Source: Thunnus maccoyii
Lineage: Eukaryota; Chordata; Actinopteri; Scombriformes; Scombridae
Direction of reading: 5' to 3'
Assembly (NCBI RefSeq): GCF_910596095.1
Contig: NC_056544.1
Coordinates: 7,518,655-7,582,654 of the forward strand
DNA length: 64,000 nt
Below the pieces are notes generated by a model. That model had not been told where the DNA came from. It saw only the letters and a program-made list of their open reading frames with translations, and searched no databases. Of the stretch, positions 4,731 to 33,032 are shown in pieces (within the stretch, counting starts at the first letter, position 1; every line of letters begins with the position of its first letter). The translations under genes and the position numbers were made by a program.

Positions 4731-4854
4731 TTAGAAATCATCGTCGTCATCATCATCGTCGTCGTCATCATCATCATCGTCATCATCGTCGTCGTCATCA
4801 TCGTCGTCATCATCATCGTCATCATCGTCATCATCATCATCGTCGTCGTCATCA

Positions 4855-4889
<35 letters not shown>

Positions 4890-7800
4890 ATCATCATCGT
4901 CATCATCATCATCATCATCATCATCGGGATCGATTTCACCTGACAGAACATCTTCAATCCAGTCCTCCAGCTCGTCTACGGTTGGCAAGTCTTCGCCATC
5001 TTCCATGTCCATCCACACACTGTCAGCCTGCAGAGCGAGGAAGAACATATAAAACCAACCAGCTCCGCTGTAGATTTTCTGCCTTAAAGGTGCTTCTTCT
5101 TCACTGCCCGCAAAAGCATTATATGTTTTGCAAGCTGGCAAAGCATAGTGCGGTTTGAAATGTAAAAAACTGGCTTTGCAAATGTTTTATGAGGAAGGAA
5201 ATGCAGTCAACATGTTGTTAGACGTCAAAGATAAACACAATTTGCTTTGGTGAGAAACACTGAATGTAAACACAACTTTTGTTGTACAAAAAAACTCCAC
5301 CAGGTACCTTAAAAGAGACAGTTTTTGAGAAGGGTTGTAGCTTTTGAGGTCGATTCAGCGGACTCAAAACAAACATGTAGATACAGCGTTGACGTACTCA
5401 CATACTCAGTGACATATACAGGACTGAATTAACCTGCTAGGAGTACCCAGTTGGAAATCCAGCCCAGGGTACATATGTACAACAGAGTGCAGCAAAACAC
5501 ACAAATGCATGAACCATCTATTAATAAAGTACCACGAATATAACTCACATCGTCAGCATCAACAACACCAATCTGAGGGTGGGACAGGTCAATTCCAAAA
5601 GTCTTCTCCCAGTGTGGCAGGAGCTGCAGGGAAAATGAACATGAATTTTGTGAAAAATATGTTTTATTGTGCTTGATAAACTTTCTCATCTTCATCATTA
5701 AATCTTAGTTCTCAGTTGATTGTCAGTTTAACCTCTCCAAAGCAGTCGCTCTGGTTTCTGCATATTGCACTGTGGTCATATTCTTACCAGGGGGAAGTCA
5801 TCGGGGTCAATCCAGACGATGCTGAGGTCAGGGTTGTGTGTGTTATCCTCTGCAACTTGCTTCAGGATCTCCAGGAACTCAAAGCCATCTGAAGAGCGGA
5901 GACAAAGACCACATTGAAAATAAAACCAAACAATTGTAATTTGCTTTAAAGGGGCGGTAGAGGTGAATGTTATATTTGCTGATTCTTTATTACTGCTTTA
6001 TTCTAAATTTGCAGATGTTGATTAGTCATATTAGTAGGGGCTCCTCATGTCAGTAGTATTTTTACATTTAATATAGGGTTCCTTTACCCAGGTCAGACTC
6101 CTCTGCAAAAGCAACAATGTGTTCACCATCAACATCGTCATCCTGTGGAAACAATAAAGACAAAATGAACACACATGGGAAAACTTAATCTTCAGTCATC
6201 CATGATGTTGTGTTTAGAGCATTAAAGTTCTTACCCAGATCTCATACATATTGTGTGGTTGCAGCTTCCTCAGGGTTGGTCTTCAAAATCAAAGAGAAAT
6301 TATATTATATGCATTTTGCTTTTCATTCTGGAAGGTTAAAGACACCTTCCAGACATGTTTTAGGACATAAATATCCTCTGCTTGGAATAATAAATTCTCT
6401 CTGTCATGTTTTTTTACATGAAAATGTTCAGTTACCTTGTGAAAAACGCTATGACTCTAACTCTATACTCTACTCCTTCACCCTCATGGAAAAATCCAGA
6501 ATCTATGAATATGCAAATATTTTTCATTTCAGAAGTTTAACTGCTGGACACAAGATGTCTTCTACTTCACTGTAGGATTCAGGTTTTCACATCATGCCAG
6601 TTGTATACTGGCCCTTGATTGGCTCAAAACTAGTTGGAATGTCAAATATCATGCTCATAGGTTTTGTCTTAAACTCAGATTTAAGGTGAGCACAGAGAAA
6701 CTTTCCTCTTTCAGCAGATGAATGTGAAAACAGCCTTCTAGTCTCAAACTGCACATACATCATTCTGCAAAGTGAAGCTCATACATCCAACTGAAGTAAC
6801 AAGAGGAAAAACATGTTTTTGACTGGAGGGGGACTTTAAGTTTTTCCCTCATGAGATCATTCTAGCACAAACGGGACTCACCTGTCATTATCTTCAATGA
6901 ACTTCACCAGCTCCTCCTCAGTGTAAGGTTTTCCAGGGATGGCCACTGGATCGTCACAGAAGGATTCATAGAAGTCCACCTCATTAGGCTTCAGATCCAG
7001 AGCCTTAGCAACCTGTAACACAGGATCAAAAGGATTGGACCAAGAATAAAACACCAGAGAATCATATGATATGGTGTGATGATGGTTTAAGTCAAAATGA
7101 AATGAAAAATGCCTTTTTAACAATTTTAGATCACATCCCTGGTCACACTGTGCACCTGTTTAACAATATATGCCCCAAAGATGACAAAAAATCAATTTCT
7201 TCATATTTTTCAAAATCCAATCATCATCCATCATGGATGGAATGCAACAAGGAATTGAAATGCAGACATTGTGATTATGTGGCATGCATGAATCTTAACC
7301 AGTAACCTACCAGAGCATGCCAGAAAATTTTTACTGAGGAAGATATACAGTACAACAATAAAAACGTGGTCATGTAGATACTATATGTATTGTGTGTGTT
7401 TTAATTCAATAAAGAGAAAGAGTGATAAAACTTTTAACAGACACATCAATTTGTTTTGAATGTTCAGCCTCCAGAACTAGACAATGTGTAGATCAGTTTT
7501 TTTTTCATAATTTAGAATTTCTTATCTAGAAAAACTGATCTACAAACTGTACTTCTAACCCTTATATAAGAATGAGCAATCAATCTTGAAAATGACTACT
7601 TTTCAAAGGTCTGAGCATCTCCCTGGGGTACCTCAAGGCTCGATTCATGGCCCATTGCTTTTTTAAAAAAAGACTAAGATTTTTTTTTGAGCCATGTGTA
7701 GGAATAACACCACACTGGTTAATGTAAAATAAATCACATGCAATAATATGTATGACATATGATTAACACATTTTTGAAACAGAGTTTGAATTTCCATAAT

Positions 7801-10800: not shown

Positions 10801-13486
10801 CAACTACACAACATGCATAATGACCTGCCGCTATACACTATTTCATTTTTAAATACTATAATTTTGTGCCTGTTCACTGAGATATACATATACCAAACAA
10901 CATTTGATAAAAATGTAATTCTTCACCATAATAATGAGATAGTTATTACTGGTGTGGATCCAAATTATTTTCCCATTTTGATTGTGTTTAAGGAGGAAAT
11001 ATATAGATCTTTATGTACTAATCTATGTCTGTTTTAATAGACAGTGAGCAGTTCAACAGGTCAGTGCATTTAGCCTCACAAAATCTAAATAGAAAAGTGA
11101 CAAAATTATCGAGTATTAGGTCTAAAGTACATTCCTAAACAACACAGAGGTATGCCATCTTAACAGTTAATTTCCTATGACTGAGGGATAAAACACAGAA
11201 ATTTTGATTTCCTCCCTACCACCAAGTCAGTAACTTTTTTGACTTTTACTGACCCCAGGAGCATTCCTCCTCGACCTCTGAAATTGTGAGCCTTTGCTGT
11301 TGTATGTTACTAATAATAAACCTTATTAAATGTAAATCATAATGCATTCATAAGGAGAAACACAAGCCTTCAGGGAGCTCAACACACCACAAAAGCAGCT
11401 CGGGATAAATATAGCGCCAGAGCCACACCAGCCCAGGGACTATTTTGGCGAGGTGGCGGTGATGCTCAGCGCTCTGGGATCCGCTGACAAGTACAGTACT
11501 GCAAGTGCCAATCACAGTGCAGAGCTGAGCCGGCACAACTGGAGCCAGAACCTCCAGAGCTGGCCTGCAGCCCCGACAGTGAGCCTTAACGCCTCATACA
11601 GAGACACCAGAGGCCGTCGAGACGATGTGATACGCTAAGGAGAGCAGCCTCTCTGTCTGTCTGGTTATTAATGTTTTCCTTTCTATTATTATATTACTAT
11701 TATTTTTGTCCCCCATCATCTCCCTTCATTTATTTGATGACAAGATAGACCCATTATTTGTTGATTGGTGGATCTAGGTGTTGTATAAAAATTCTTGCAC
11801 AAAATTTCTGCCACGTTAATATTTGCAAAACAGATCTTGAAGGCATCATTCAGTTTTACTTAAATCGGATTTGTATGTGCATATGTAAAGTGAGGTTGTA
11901 TGATAACAGCTGTAAATAATGAGGCAGAGAAAGTACTTGAATGTCTCATAGGGACTGTTGGTCCTCAGTGTCATCCCATTCACTGATTCTCAATTTGGTT
12001 GCAATTGCCAAGACTGTTTTTTTCTGCTGTTTAGTGTGTAAGTTCTTAAAGGAGCCACCAGCAGCTCTCCTCAAAATATAATAATGTGCCAAACAAGTGC
12101 ATAAGGTGTTAACTCTACACTGTGCAGTGTCAACATTAAATGCCATATAATATGGTTAACACATGATCCAGTGTATTTATTCCATAGACCAATCATCACC
12201 TCTATCACTTTTTTTATAGAACTGCAACTTTCACTGCAGACATTAGTATATAGTATTTCTTCAAATGATATCAAGTGTCTGTCTAAAATATCATTTGAGA
12301 ACCAGTTAGGTCCATATTGTGTGCGATGTCTAAGATTTCATGTCTGCTCTCCATCAGCTGTAACTTTCATTTTGTGTTCTGTTTTTGGTCCAGTTTAAAA
12401 TGACTGCAGGATATCTGGGCGACTATAAATGTGTAATTAACTTTAATTGGCAAGAACACAAAATGAAAAATTAAGTTTCTCCTGGAAAACGTGCTTTGGC
12501 AGTTTGCAGCATTTGATATACAGATATTTTCTTGGTAAATCGCTGTTTGACACTGAAGCTTTGTGCTGAGTGATGACGTCATGTCTCTCTGTGAGGAATG
12601 TGGTGAAACCTCAGAGTATCATGGTGTGACAGGCATATGGAGGTGTTTTCAGTGCATCAGATCCCACACACACACATACACTTCCATATATTATACACCA
12701 GCTCAGCCTTTGCCAGAATAAATGATATCCTGGGTCCTCACAGCTCAGCTCTTTGCCTCGGGTGGACGACACTGATGACACACCGCAGACTTGTGACTTC
12801 ACCTATCAGCATTTCTGAGTCCAGAGAAGCTATTTTCCACCTCGCAGCATCGCTTTCTCATGATAACTCCCTCTGTCTTCGATTTCACGTTTAACACATT
12901 TCAAATCTTTCAAAAAAATATACGTCTGTTTTTACTTTCTCTTTCTACATTCTTCCAACTTTCCTTCCTTTACTGTTTTTAAATATTTGATTTACATCTT
13001 AAGCTTATATATATAATTAAAGTTCCTCTCTCAACACCGCTCTGTCTCACCTAAATTGAATTCAACAATATCAAAACACAAACTCTGCTAGATCCTCAAA
13101 CCAAACTCTTAATAGCATCCTAGAATATTAAAGCAATGTGATATTTCTGTGTGCTGTACATTATGAATCCAGTAGGTCTACTAGCTGTGCTGCTTCCTTA
13201 TCAGTATGCTATCCTCTTTATTCTATCCATAGTTCCCATCTCAACCCACCTCAAGGGCCAGTTCCTCAATCTCAAACTGTTTCTGGGCGACGCGGCTTGA
13301 TCCGGGATGGTCATGGTAGTACACCACCATAATATCATACTTCTTCATCACAGACTTATAGTTCTTGGCGTGGAGGTCGTGGACGCGGTCCTTGCCATCA
13401 TACATAGGGAAGTCCAAGCTCTCTTTGCCCAATGATATCCCCGCAAAGGACAGCAGGACTGCCACAAGCACCCAGGTCCACTTCAT
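4731..13486 (-). CDS. casq1: Calsequestrin-1, sarcoplasmic reticulum Ca2+-storage protein, with giant polyaspartate tail
   Basis: Eleven coding exons on the minus strand join to 440 codons: 13250-13486, 9464-9557, 9109-9209, 8813-8924, 8457-8530, 6882-7012, 6235-6280, 6088-6142, 5788-5888, 5549-5623, 4731-5027. Calsequestrin polymerises in the junctional sarcoplasmic reticulum lumen and stores Ca2+ at acidic surfaces. Residues 1-20 ([20 protein letters not shown]) are a signal peptide; three thioredoxin-like domains follow. Phrases such as [17 protein letters not shown] and [15 protein letters not shown] fit CASQ1 better than CASQ2. The last exon encodes SGEIDP, then 63 consecutive Asp (4737-4925), then Phe and stop; human CASQ1 has 396 residues and a far shorter tail. 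Exon 3 must use a weak GTTCGT donor to stay in frame. Which fish duplicate (a or b) this is cannot be told. Confidence 0.93.
4737..4925 (-). repeat. casq1: Coding GAY triplet repeat: 63 aspartate codons at the casq1 C-terminus
   Basis: On the plus strand every triplet is ATC or GTC, so on the coding strand every codon is GAT or GAC. The two codons are mixed irregularly, so the protein run is perfect while the DNA repeat is imperfect. It is flanked by GEIDP on one side and Phe-stop on the other. Confidence 0.97.
6336..6839. mobile_element. TTAA-end MITE inside a casq1 intron
   Basis: The copy begins TTAAAGACACCTTCC and ends GGAGGGGGACTTTAA, in the intron between casq1 exons 6 and 7. Its body matches the copy at 33528-33971 closely; both contain CAGCAGATGAATGTGAAAAC near the right end. 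It is 504 bp and non-coding. Confidence 0.75.
7120..8450. other. casq1 intron 5, AT-rich, no gene seen
   Basis: The stretch between casq1 exons 6 and 5 is AT-rich, with a short TA/CA run near 8205-8250. I see no coding or structural RNA signal in it. Confidence 0.5.
9565..13249. other. casq1 intron 1 with a GC-rich island
   Basis: This is the largest casq1 intron. A short (CA)n lies near 9917-9934. A GC-richer stretch at about 11350-11640 contrasts with the AT-rich surroundings and holds a 61-codon plus-strand frame of unknown meaning. Otherwise nothing is recognisable. Confidence 0.5.
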
Positions 13487-17686: not shown

Positions 17687-20600
17687 ATGGCTGCAGCTCT
17701 GGCCAACAGAGCGATAGGAGCCATTGTAGGATCAGCAGTTGCAGATGCAGCAGGTAATGATAAGAAAAGTTTGTCTGTAGGGTTATGTTGCACATTGTTT
17801 AGCCAGTAGTAAACACTGAGATGGAAATGAGTTTCCTTGACCCACTTCTTGTTTATAATAAATATAAAGCTATAAAGGTGTAATTTTTTACAAGGGTAAC
17901 TTCTACAAGGTTCTACCTATCTGCTATTATCTGAGTCTTTACCTGTAAAGACAACTTTTACTACAAATCATGTTTAATTTTAATAATCTGTCATTTTAAT
18001 TACAAAGCTAGAAGATCTCTTAAGTCCTGATCAGATTTAATATGACCTGATGACTCGCCCCCAACAGCGCAGCCCCTTCACTGGGTGTATGACCTCCAGA
18101 AGCTGCAGGGGATTCTGGCTCAGGATCCAAACCCTGAATTTCGCACAGAGTCGGCCAACCCGTTCTACAGGAGGCAGACGGGCCAGCAGAGCTGCTACGG
18201 AGACCAGGCATATGTCTTGCTGGAGTCCTTGTCCGAATGTGGAGGTAGGCATTTACATTTACAACTCATGAAACTGTTCAGTGTGTTAGTTAAGACAAAC
18301 ACCCATGTGCAAACCCAGCGTGCCATTTGATAAAACAGTGGTTGTTGATTGTGGTTTCCATCATAATTGACACTATAATTAGACACGTGACACTTACAGA
18401 CGGCTCTGTAGCCATGTGATGAGCTCTACATCTGCTGTGGACATGTAGCCCACACATCCTCACTTCACCTGAGTTATCCAACAATTACACCTGCAAGAGA
18501 ACAATTAAAAGAATGGATTACTAAACAATTCATAAAAAAATATGTGTGGAAAATCATATTTTTATTGCAGACTTTTCTACCCAAGCTTTTAACTTGGTAT
18601 GTAAGTGTCTCCTGTGGCACAGTATGAACTTATTATTGTTACTTCACCATATCATGTCAGGTTTAGGCTGCTTCTTACTGTCTCTGATGGAAATATAAGA
18701 TGATGCGTTATATCTCATCTAATACTTTCCTTTCATATGTAAATGTCTCTATTAGTTATAAAATATTTTTATGGCCATGTGACTTTCCAGGTTAAGTTTG
18801 TCGTTGTCTAAGCTGTTTGGTCTATTTGCCCAGGTCTAAATGTTGATGATCTGAAGCAGCGCACACTGAAATTCTTTGGGCCTGGATCAGAGTATGATAC
18901 ACCTATCAATGATCCTTACAGAGAGAGAGGAGGTAAGAAAACTATCCGGTAGAAGTGGATAAAGGTCTTTTATGTTTTTGACGAGGAACAGCTGACAGGT
19001 CTTTTCTGTGTGTGCTAGGGCCCAGACCTCAGCTGCCTATTGAGGGACCATGGAGACATGGGAGTTTGAAGAACTTCCTGAAGAACGTGGACGCAGGCAA
19101 AGAGGAGACAGGTGAAGCTCTGCTGTTCAATCCCAGTTATGATAACTATGATGTTATCAAGAGAAACAAAACTAACTAATGTGTCTTGGTTTCTACAGGC
19201 TGTGAGAATGACTGTCAGATTGATGGAATAACCAAACTGGCTCCAGTAGTGGCTTTTTACGCAGGAAAGCCAGACATGCTGGAGAAGGTTGAGCAGGCTG
19301 TCCGTGTCACCCAGAACAATGATGCGTGTGTGGCAGAGACTCTGGCAGCTGCAAGGTCAGTACATCAGACCACTCAAACTTTAGTATTTCCACTTACTGT
19401 TACTGATGACAGTATCACTGAATCTGAGAGTTGAACTATTAAATGAGAAGAAAATCATGATTCTTTTAATTGCAAGGCACACCGGCTGTTTTAATTCTGA
19501 CAGTTTCGATAGTTTTCATTGATTTTGTAGCATCCTCTCCATCTCCACTCACTTCCTGTCACCTCTCTACTGTCTAATTTATTCATTAAACTTTTTGTAG
19601 AGAAAGAAACCCAGCATGAATTCTATTTGGGTGCCAAACTGAAATTGAATTAAAATAATAGATTGTACATGGAATTATTTCTCCCAGGTTCCTGGAGCAT
19701 TTCATCCTGAATGGTTCTGATCCAAAAGCCTTGGACACAGTGCTCCATCAGCTTAATGACCCGAACAGAAAGCAGCCACAGGATCTGGACAAAGCGGTCA
19801 TTGGTATGTGAAGCCTGCAGCATTGTTGCTTCACTACAGCAAAGTCACGAGGCTGAATCATGGGATTAAAGGGTCTATTTAGTCTTCCTCTTTTTGTGCC
19901 AGAAATGGTTTCTAATTAAGAGTTAAAGATACCAAATAGTTACTATGTTTGTAATAATCTGAGCAGAATTTTCAATGTGAGGATAAATGAACAAAAAGAT
20001 GTTTTATAAGACTTTTCATCTATATGATTGACTGATCAGTGGATCAAATTCTTTTCTGATTTCAGGGCACATTCTTCAGGTGAAGGAGAATTTATCCAAG
20101 ACTCCCAAAGAGCTAATCCCCACCGTGTTTCCAAACACATGAGGTATCTTTTCAAAACTCCCAGTAACCTCTATCTTCTCTGTGTCGCTCTTTTAATAAG
20201 CAAAGAACAGTAACAGGTAGTTTTCAATGACTCAACAAATTATGTGACGTTAAGTTAAAATGCCTACGTGTCGTTCACTTCCGGTGTTTATGTTCTTTCA
20301 GGTTTGCCAGGTGCGTTCCAAGCAGCGCTGCACGGAGTCCTGACAGCCAAGCAGTACGAGCAGGCTGTCAGAGACACCATGAGCTGTGGGGGATGCACCT
20401 GTAGCAGAGGATCCTTCATCGGGGCCTGTCTTGGTGCTCAGGTACGACTGTCTGTCAATCCTTCATTCATTAAACACTTATTCAGTAAGTCAGGAACTTC
20501 ATGTAAATGGTGCTCTTTTGTTCAACCATGATAGCTCTCACTACTCATGATAGTGTATCTACCCAGCTGTCCATTTATTCTGAATAATCATTGTTTTGTA

Positions 20601-20740
20601 TGTCTGATGATTCATAAAATGTTTCATTTTAATTCCCCCAGATTGGATTTGAGGGAATTCCATCTTCCTGGGCATCCAAGACACTGCGATATGACTCAGT
20701 GTTGGAGCACGCCAAGAAGATAACTAAACACCACCAGTAG
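17687..20740 (+). CDS. selenoj: Selenoprotein J (ADP-ribosylglycohydrolase / J1-crystallin family), Sec at codon 262
   Basis: Exons 17687-17753, 18068-18244, 18834-18932, 19019-19111, 19199-19355, 19688-19803, 20066-20143, 20302-20441 and 20642-20740 join in frame to 341 codons. The start (MAAALANRAIGAIVGSAVAD) and the CYGDQAYVLLES and FIGACLGAQ segments belong to the J1-crystallin-like branch of the ADP-ribosylglycohydrolase fold. The only internal stop is TGA at 20140-20142, inside the conserved context PNT-U-GLPGAFQ, and a SECIS element lies in the 3' UTR, so it is read as selenocysteine. The family's GGDTD metal-binding motif is here GGCTC (in exon 20302-20441), so classical hydrolase activity is doubtful. 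SelJ is a known selenoprotein mainly of fish; its function is unsettled, and a structural, crystallin-like role has been proposed. The TGA is one base before an exon junction. Confidence 0.93.
20140..20142 (+). other. selenoj: Selenocysteine UGA codon (U262) of selenoj
   Basis: Reading continues in frame after this TGA through two more exons of conserved sequence (GLPGAFQAALHGVL onward) to a TAG at 20738. The exon ends one base after the TGA (20143). Read as a stop, it would lie upstream of two exon junctions and should trigger nonsense-mediated decay. Confidence 0.9.
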
Positions 20741-22713
20741 TTATTCTTTCTCTGGCAGTCTAATGAGTTTAACCATCTAAGGTGGTTCAGAACATCATGA
20801 ACAACTGTTGAGCTTCGACAGAACAGTGAATGAAGGTTTTTGTCTAAACTGTTGGACGGCAGGAGCCAGATGTTTTTGTCTCTGTTAAAGTGAAACATGT
20901 TGGTTCAGATGTTCTGTACATGTGTTTTTTTGCATTTAAGTAATTCTCAAAAAAAATCCTTTTGTCTGATATTTAGATGAACTGAACTATGATGCACTGA
21001 TGGATCAACTGATTTTTCTAACTTGGAGTTACATGTTACTCAATTAACACTTAATAAACAAAGGACAGAAGTGCCAAATTAGATTCACTCCTGTTACTGC
21101 AAATATTTCGTTTTTGATAAAATAGTATACAATGCTACATTTGAAATCACATCCCTTCAGCTTCAGGAAGTTGACAAGAGCCATACAAAGGGTTAGTGAA
21201 CAAGAGAAGACTTGTCATGTGCACTAAGTAATTTCCTTTTTTTCTCATGAGTCTGTCTTCTCTTCCTTTTAGAATCAAATAGGAAATATCACATCCAACT
21301 ATGTTCTCTCTTCCAAAAAGTATCTCTGATTTTACACAGAAATGTTCACTAGAACATTACCTCTATATGACCTCAATAATGGTCAAATACTGCATGAACG
21401 GTAGGATGTTGTAGTTTCCACCTTTGTGACCAAGGCCAGATTAACCACCAAATTTGAGCTGTGGATGGCTATTGACCACTTTGCATTAGGTATTGAATAG
21501 CTCCTGTTGCCTTTAAGCACAATTACACTGCAAACACCACACTACACGTCAGTGCCATTACATTTAATATTGAGCCCTAGAGACCAACAGGTATTACTGA
21601 TATAATAAAGGTAGAAACCAGCGGTACTAAATATAAAGGTTAATATATTTTAAAAAATGAAGAACCTGCCTTAAGTCCCCTGTCATTTGTATATTAGTGG
21701 TGCATATTTACATATTTGCAGCCAAACAGAGTAACTGCTATCGACTCCTGAGTTATTAGTCATGGATCAAAGAATTTCCACAACTACACTGGTACAGAAG
21801 TCAGACATGTAATCTCTTTGCATTATAAATTGGACTTCTAAAATATTTTCATTAATTTCTCATTGTTGTATAGACTGATTAACTGGAATTTTAACATTTG
21901 TACTGATGGTGGTGGGCAAAGATTGATGCAGGGAAAGCAGTCATTGTATACACGGTACTTTATCCCTGTCAGGACTGGTGGTATAGGCTTCTGCTCATTT
22001 AAGTATTTTTTGGGAAAAATTAACATTGTAAAAGAAAAATGTGATAAGAGACCTAACAGACTCAAGGGCATTATTTCTCCATCACATAAGTACTGTACTG
22101 CCTGCTGTTTTCAATTGAATAAAAAGTCACAGAGCTGGGAATATTTGTGATAAACACTGTAAGATCAAATCATCGTCATATATGACACAACGTTGAATTT
22201 AATCTGTGAAAAAATGTACTTCAAACACTTAATACTAATATGGGTTGTGGTTGTGTAGTTTTGTGGATTGCAGGTAATCACACGACTTATTTTTTCAGTG
22301 TCTGTACTCCAGGATATCTTGGACTGACTTTTTGGCACTTTGTACTATTGTGAGGCTGAAATATATTTTTGTTTTACCACAAAAGCTGAATAAAAGCATT
22401 TTTATTTTCATTTCCATTGTTTATCTTACATGGAAAACGATTCAGAAAGCAAAATACTCAAATTCCAAGCCATTAAAAATATTATAGATTTAAATGTCAC
22501 AGCAAATCTGTGTTAAATTAATGGTGTAAAAAATCAAACATAAGTCATAGAAATGCAGTTGAGCATAAGACTGTGATGTGTAACCCATCCCTGACACTGT
22601 GATGATTGTGTTGTCATTTTCACTTCACTACAAACTCGAAAATCGAAATTGTCCCATCGCCGCCACCGTAGGTTTTTCTGATGACAGAGTTGGTTAGCAT
22701 CAGGACGTCAAAC
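20741..22713 (+). other. selenoj 3' UTR and spacer to eif2b5
   Basis: A poly(A) signal AATAAA lies at 21053-21058 and another at 22389-22394. Apart from the SECIS the stretch is AT-rich with no coding exon recognised. Eif2b5 begins about 1.97 kb after the selenoj stop, in the same direction. Confidence 0.6.
20817..20886 (+). promoter_or_regulatory. selenoj: SECIS element in the selenoj 3' UTR
   Basis: The non-Watson-Crick quartet is ATGA (20830-20833) opposite AGAT (20868-20871). Helix II pairs GGTTTTTGTC (20835-20844) with GGCAGGAGCC (20858-20867), ten consecutive pairs including G-U. The apical loop (20845-20857) starts T-AAA, with the conserved adenines 12 bases after the quartet. Helix I pairs CAGAACA (20819-20825) with TGTCTCTG (20877-20884) with one bulged C. 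These are the defining parts of a eukaryotic SECIS. Confidence 0.88.
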
Positions 22714-29731
<7,018 letters not shown>

Positions 29732-31929: not shown

Positions 31930-33032
31930 CTATTTGTCATCCTGTTTTTTGACCAGGTTGTAAATGACTCGAGCTAAAAGAGAAGCTCCAGTGATGCCAG
32001 TAACTGCAGTCAGCGTCTTCCACATGCTGGCTGAACTCTCGTGCCCGTCTATGAAGCTCCTGTAGTCAGTGGGCACCAGGATGTACTTGCGGCCATCCTG
32101 AGGGGCCTGCAGCCTCATCACCTGGCCTCCCTCCAGCACCACCTCCCCAAACCCAGTCAGGGTGGTGCCCACCCGCAGCAGCTCCTCGCTCTCCTCCATC
32201 GCCACAGGTTTCTCCCCGCTCAAGCCCTGCATCACCACGTTCACCAAGCCCTCCTCAGCGCGTCTCACTCGGTGGTAAACCCTCTCCAAGTAGCACCCAG
32301 AGGCCTCCAGAGGGTTCTGCACCTTCACATACAAGTCAGTGAAGTAGACCCCAGGGCTGACCAGACTGAAGGGCACAGAGTTTTTGGTTTCTTTCGAGTT
32401 CATCGTCCGAGAGTTCCTGGAGAAGGAATAACACTGTTATTAATGGGCTTGTAGATTGATAAATACTTTTTAAATTTTATTTCTCAGTCTTATGTACCAT
32501 GTCCTGGTGAGGGTGTTCCAGTATTTCCAGTGTTCCTCTGCGGCTATCCTCTGAATCACACCAAAGCATCGTGGGACAAACTGGCTGGCCAGAGGCTCCC
32601 CGTCTGCCTGGACCAGACCTTGAAACAGACATGAAGAGATCTGTCAGTTATCTCAATGACAGGAAACTGTGTGCTAAAATGCATTTTTTTAAAAAAAAGT
32701 TTTAATTTTCTAGACATGTTTGTACCTTCTACAGCAACATACTGGAGCCTCTTGTGGGGAGACGCTTTCAGTACCCTGACCAAATGTTGATCTGGTTTGA
32801 AAATGGGTATTTCCTGAAATGAGGAAGTGTTTAAATCAGTGCACAAAAAAAGTACAAACAAAAAAACAGAGTTGTATTGATAGTTGAAAAGTCCTTAAGA
32901 CAATGATGTACTTGCCTTCAGCTTTTTCAACTCTTTCTTCTTTTCTTGGTATAAATGATAGAACAGGCCAGAAAAGGCGAAGCTGGATCCTACACCGATT
33001 ATAACCAGAGGGTTTACAGGAAAGTCACCCAT
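31930..33032 (-). CDS. mul1-like: MUL1-like mitochondrial outer-membrane protein lacking the RING domain
   Basis: Four coding exons on the minus strand (32916-33032, 32726-32813, 32498-32618, 31930-32416) give 270 codons. MUL1 is an E3 ubiquitin/SUMO ligase of the mitochondrial outer membrane, with two membrane segments flanking a BAM/GIDE domain that faces the intermembrane space and a cytosolic C-terminal RING. Here membrane segment 1 is about residues 8-30 (PLVIIGVGSSFAFSGLFYHL), the BAM/GIDE domain about 50-215 (GVIQRIAAEEHWKYWN, VGTTLTGFGEVVLEGG), and segment 2 about 237-264, followed by KKQDDK and TAG. No Cys/His RING pattern follows in the next few hundred bases, whereas human MUL1 continues to 352 residues. 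Intron 1 uses a GC donor (AAG|GCAAGT). A non-coding 5' exon probably ends at 33195 (CAG|GTAAGT). The absent RING suggests a non-ligase paralogue. Confidence 0.8.

Follow-up and report, generated by a model that had tools for sequence, protein, structure and literature searches.

Jellyfish J1-crystallins are reportedly relatives of selenoprotein J (SelJ), a relationship attributed to Castellano in 2005. SelJ has been established as a family of selenoproteins (PMC3316567, PMC3473315, PMC2375036, PMC2397514, PMC3965025). Among vertebrates it has been reported in fishes only, with SelJ2 described in medaka and stickleback (PMC3316567), which agrees with the statement in our initial annotation that SelJ occurs mainly in fish; one SelJ is also tabulated for an invertebrate abbreviated Bf (PMC3473315). 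One review describes the Ribosyl_crysJ1 domain as common to ARH proteins, with homology to SelJ (PMC9087173), and the table of another records SelJ expression in the eye lenses of certain fish species, which suggests a potential structural role (PMC11591929). The gene that we analysed shares an in-frame UGA, an ADP-ribosylglycohydrolase-type domain, a SECIS-like element in the 3' UTR and two copies per genome with SelJ (SELENOJ) and SelJ2 of bony fishes, and we found no difference in a comparison made by description only. As SelJ and fish SelJ2 are already published, the gene belongs to a known kind; it is a further example of a published fish selenoprotein and will be of use mainly for annotation.

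In the 64-kb stretch of fish DNA that we analysed (the window), the SelJ gene spans 17687-20740 on the forward strand, and its nine coding exons join into 1026 nt, corresponding to 341 codons and a TAG (Table 1). All exons are preceded by AG, and exons 1-8 are followed by GT. In the joined frame there is a TGA at codon 262, in the context PNT-U-GLPGAFQ, and the TAG at codon 342, and there are no other stops. The base directly after the internal TGA, G20143, is the final base of exon 7, after which intron 7 begins. The initial annotation had proposed nine in-frame exons with a single internal stop at codon 262 and an exon end one base after it, and exon assembly reproduced this model exactly; the roughly 80 conserved codons that it placed after the TGA were counted as 79. 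It had also anticipated that gene callers would truncate the protein or skip the exon. Exon 7 is 78 nt long and the frame stays open when it is skipped, and in line with the expected trouble, a 2026 survey places SELENOJ among the families of worst status in Ensembl (<1% well annotated), although it finds fish-specific selenoprotein families in RefSeq to be no worse than mammalian ones (PMC12822975). With Cys typed at codon 262, the 341-residue product matches the Pfam family ADP_ribosyl_GH (PF03747, 3.6e-43) over residues 11-317, that is, across the TGA, and the ADP-ribosylglycohydrolase-type domain that is a feature of SelJ is present.

Table 1. Features of the SelJ gene, in window coordinates.
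Feature	Position	Strand	Motif or basis
SelJ coding exon 1	17687-17753	+	ATG 17687-17689
SelJ coding exon 2	18068-18244	+	S64-C65-Y66-G67, aligning to canonical TDDT
SelJ coding exon 3	18834-18932	+	Assembled exon model
SelJ coding exon 4	19019-19111	+	Assembled exon model
SelJ coding exon 5	19199-19355	+	AVRVTQNND motif
SelJ coding exon 6	19688-19803	+	Assembled exon model
SelJ coding exon 7	20066-20143	+	78 nt; ends 1 base past the Sec codon
TGA codon 262, Sec reading	20140-20142	+	Exon model, paralogue TGA, bacterial Cys
SelJ coding exon 8	20302-20441	+	GLPGAFQ...; GGCTCSR, aligning to canonical C-terminal GGD[TA]D
SelJ coding exon 9 and stop	20642-20740	+	Assembled exon model; TAG 20738-20740
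SECIS-like element	20824-20884	+	ATGA 20830-20833, AAA apical loop, AGAT 20868-20871; Rfam SECIS_1, pattern scan, fold

In the 3' UTR, a SECIS-like hairpin begins 89 nt past the SelJ stop. The hairpin (ATGA-AGGTTTTTGTCT-AAA...AGAT at 20830-20871) has a 10-bp helix II that is drawn likewise by folding; its fold energy is unexceptional (z –0.89, with 39 of 200 shuffles folding equally well). We scanned both strands of the window with a pattern of ATGA, a fully paired helix, AA at the apical loop and GA in the 3' quartet, and the SelJ hairpin was the sole fully paired match, even when the helix was only required to be at least 7 bp long, with a pattern that was designed after the site was known and is not blind. 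The same pattern matched 10 Mb of random first-order sequence 2 times at 10 bp, 9 times at 9 bp and 27 times at 8 bp, and a second random run of 2 Mb gave 1 match. When two mismatches were tolerated, 5 places on the forward strand of the window fitted. Rfam SECIS_1 aligns the core motifs of the hairpin with 16.1 bits and an E-value of 1 in the short stretch searched, compared to a gathering score of 35; a search of the whole window at the gathering threshold gave no match, and the hairpin is absent from the list of an E-value search of a 2-kb stretch. By its core motifs and 10-bp helix, the SECIS that is a feature of SelJ genes is present, and it fails Rfam's own gathering score. SBP2 and eEFSec belong to the Sec decoding machinery; its tRNA-Sec, the component that we searched for, was found in the genome here. 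It lies at C6:20037046-20037131 (78.1 bits) and is the sole match over the Rfam cut-off, with 46 more below; ARAGORN labels it tRNA-SeC, anticodon TCA. The same Rfam search gives matches in 14/14 control genomes, over the cut-off in 5. On contig C23 (2809322-2894000), there are many matches just under the cut-off, mostly ~2.6 kb apart, probably a repeat that contains ordinary tRNA genes.

When the genome (782 Mb, 54 contigs) was searched with the protein, 14 matches at exon level were obtained, of which 8 fall in the SelJ gene of the window and 6 on contig C21. The C21 paralogue (L081; 18947694-18941905, minus strand) is likewise divided into nine exons, and their phases match those of SelJ; exons 1-8 are equal in length except for exon 2 (+1 codon), and exon 9 has 2 codons more. 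The homologous codon of the paralogue, which is number 263 there, is also TGA and lies in the same phase, and the two copies share the NT-TGA-G|gt exon end. The copies are identical at 229/341 aligned residues (67%), Sec position included. The presence of two SelJ genes suggests that the genome is that of a fish. Over their whole length, pS is 0.64 and pN is 0.19, so that synonymous sites are near saturation, yet the TGA is kept. In the 79 codons past the TGA, pS is 0.60 and pN is 0.25, and pN reached or exceeded pS in 0/2000 bootstraps, which is the pattern expected if the part after the TGA is translated. In the same comparison, exon 7 also appears to be under selection at the protein level (pS 0.655, pN 0.168; reversed in 0/2000 bootstraps). 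Near the C21 gene, in a 209-nt stretch of 3' UTR, the best Rfam match is SECIS_1 (16.3 bits, E-value 1.4, gathering threshold 35), and SECIS_1 is not listed when the 3' UTR is searched as a 2-kb stretch. The C21 hairpin has two mismatches in helix II. At the two-mismatch level, 2 Mb of random sequence contained 166 hairpins, and the 9.9-kb C21 locus has one more elsewhere; because such relaxed matches are common, the C21 element is only modestly supported.

Because the Pfam domain crosses the TGA and the paralogue keeps a TGA at the same place, the internal TGA is beyond chance. We considered whether it could be a normal termination codon or an inactivating mutation, either in a pseudogene or through an assembly error from a Cys codon, since TGA is one base away from both TGT and TGC. 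Such a reading would have to contend with the same TGA on another contig, with codons conserved as protein after it, with a domain that requires the downstream part and with a SECIS-like hairpin in the 3' UTR, and we give it next to no chance.

To look at the Sec column outside fishes, we scanned bacterial and archaeal genomes, one for each species, with patterns at positions 181-187 and 58-66 that leave the Sec column unused. With a two-sequence alignment of fish SelJ and a Vibrio piece as the query, 57 loci (L010-L066) were confirmed from 90 pattern-matching stretches; an earlier scan of the same kind with the fish protein alone gave 26 stretches that fit the pattern, of which 0 were confirmed as relatives. 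A plasmid search gave one match, in a Vibrio record, and a phage search gave one weak match. In all 57 loci, a piece of ORF aligned to SelJ, and one (L038) stops short of the Sec column. The initial annotation named homologues with neither Cys nor Sec at this column as evidence that would speak against it; in the bacterial relatives the column holds Cys in 54/56 and Ser in 2/56 (L043, L047), with many of the 56 loci coming from closely related Vibrio, so that the 54 Cys do not amount to 54 independent events. Thus, an in-frame UGA where relatives carry Sec or Cys, a further feature of SelJ, is present. In an alignment of 16 bacterial proteins with the two fish copies (A3, Cys typed for Sec), Cys is found at this column in 18/18 rows. 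Of the other nine fish cysteines, seven have no bacterial Cys, and positions 291 and 296 have Cys in 32/56 and 46/56, counts that depend on the alignment (the pairwise alignment A1 sets a Vibrio Cys on Cys147).

The bacterial proteins resemble fish SelJ in HWxYD-like, AVRVTxNND and GG....R motifs and, for the 16 in A3, at 22-35% identity. They differ from it in having Cys for Sec and Asp294 in 56/56 where the fish protein has Cys. The conserved Cys may reflect an ancient chemical function of the residue. Judged by their record titles, the relatives are mainly proteobacterial. The parts of the SelJ literature that we drew on hold no description of bacterial Cys relatives, and we do not claim that they are absent from print. 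In one Vibrio campbellii record (L001), the SelJ-like N-terminal part is out of frame with the rest; in related Vibrio loci such as L021 and L024, the SelJ-like frame is open over 311 codons. The genes next to the bacterial relatives (20 ORFs from 14/57 loci) have no partner in common; against Pfam at 1e-8, 16/20 matched a family and 4/20 matched none. One neighbouring ORF (L010:503-1390, minus strand) matches PF04655, an aminoglycoside/hydroxyurea kinase family, and is the sole such ORF among the 20.

The conserved column also bears on whether the TGA is translated at all. If exon 7 were skipped, the protein would lack approximately codons 236-262 and the TGA would never be read; the 78-nt length of the exon allows this, and almost 22% of Ensembl selenoprotein transcripts skip the exon with the Sec UGA or the relevant portion of it, which the survey counts as misannotation (PMC12822975). 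However, skipping would leave the SECIS-like element without purpose, and it fits neither the protein-like selection on exon 7 nor the Cys found at the Sec column in nearly all bacterial relatives; we regard it as very improbable. The domain match, the SECIS-like element, the TGA of the paralogue, the bacterial Cys and the tRNA-Sec all agree with the identity and the recoding that were first proposed from the window. Taken together, these data suggest that UGA262 is almost certainly recoded as selenocysteine in a functional fish SelJ gene, and the locus is very probably a genuine selenoprotein J gene that is ordinary for its family. Decoding of UGA262 as Sec would rely on the SECIS element in the 3' UTR together with SBP2, eEFSec and tRNA-Sec, and would yield a full-length member of the ADP-ribosylglycohydrolase (ARH/DraG) family. 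At low selenium, translation would end at UGA262, which lies 141 nt before the last exon junction, and the SelJ mRNA would then likely be a target of nonsense-mediated decay.

To place SelJ among proteins with solved structures, we compared a profile of 18 SelJ-like proteins (2 fish and 16 bacterial) with them and found homology to ADP-ribosylhydrolases: MJ1187 at 5e-24, DraG at ~1e-6 and ARH3 at 4e-4. MJ1187 has Val where fish SelJ has Sec262. In DraG/ARH enzymes, the Asp residues of the TDDT and GGD[TA]D motifs bind metals. In contrast to these canonical metal-dependent ADP-ribosylhydrolases, fish SelJ does not have the Asp ligands: it has S-C-Y-G at the TDDT of MJ1187, and GGCTC where MJ1187, Lmo0067 and 2cwc have their GGD[TA]D motifs. 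In the bacterial relatives, the equivalent of TDDT is mostly [ST][HQ]YG, and in the equivalent of GGD[TA]D the first Asp is kept in every protein (56/56) and the second is the Cys at 296 in most. Because the aligned metal-site Asp residues are replaced, SelJ is unlikely to act as a normal metal-dependent ADP-ribosylhydrolase, as far as can be judged from the alignments. The same domain is found in PDB 6sga_FP (mt-SAF23), which we take to be a trypanosome mitoribosome assembly factor; it has GGPVCQR for the GGCTCSR of SelJ and no Cys at the aligned Sec column, and is possibly a non-catalytic cousin.

On the basis of sequence, residue 262, which is Cys or Sec almost throughout, is the strongest candidate for chemistry in SelJ. 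A second residue that would work with it is less clear. Both Cys262 and Cys296 are present in 46/56 bacterial proteins, and both fish copies share a Cys at position 291 with the 32 bacterial proteins counted above; because the fish paralogue has Ala296, the redox partner of residue 262 is unsettled. This inconstant second Cys and the Ser at the Sec column of two bacteria count against a chemical step. SelJ could also be a recoded selenoprotein that is purely structural and crystallin-like, with no chemistry at Sec262, a reading that competes with the chemical step and not with the recoding. The lens expression reported for certain fish and the missing metal-site aspartates would suit a structural protein, although the residue is nearly invariant Cys in bacteria, which have no lens, and the TGA persists in two fish copies whose synonymous differences are almost saturated; we consider a purely structural role rather unlikely. 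The loss of the Asp ligands together with the conserved Cys/Sec262 favours thiol or selenol chemistry over a purely structural crystallin, without proving it. That Sec262 acts as a nucleophile or redox residue, and not as packing material of the lens, is a tentative reading to which we give somewhat less than even confidence. SelJ would belong to a subfamily from which the canonical metal-site aspartates have been lost and in which a conserved Sec (Cys in bacteria) precedes the former C-terminal metal motif by ~30 residues. We are slightly more hesitant about the wider proposal that SelJ and J1 may be the animal branch of an old enzyme subfamily in which metal chemistry was replaced by a catalytic or redox Cys, which became Sec in fish. 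If this is true, SelJ is an enzyme and not a structural protein of the lens, and the bacterial relatives would let its activity be found. A protein with the conserved bacterial Cys is likely easier to express and offers one residue to test for SelJ function; to us, the functional question opened by these relatives is of higher interest than the gene itself.

Around SelJ, we found parts of other genes in the window. The first exon of a calsequestrin gene lies at ~13250-13486 on the minus strand, opposite to SelJ. An ORF at 4731-5141 (minus strand) ends in 63 consecutive Asp codons and one Phe; it likely encodes the acidic tail of this calsequestrin, and the length of the Asp tract may be polymorphic or a feature of the assembly. 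Directly downstream of SelJ and in the same orientation is the eIF2B epsilon gene (22714 onwards and 25245-25904, plus strand), the first exon of which (22714 onwards) we assign by resemblance. Further downstream, a 157-residue ORF on the minus strand (31930-32403) may represent an exon of a MUL1-type E3 ligase, which it resembles.
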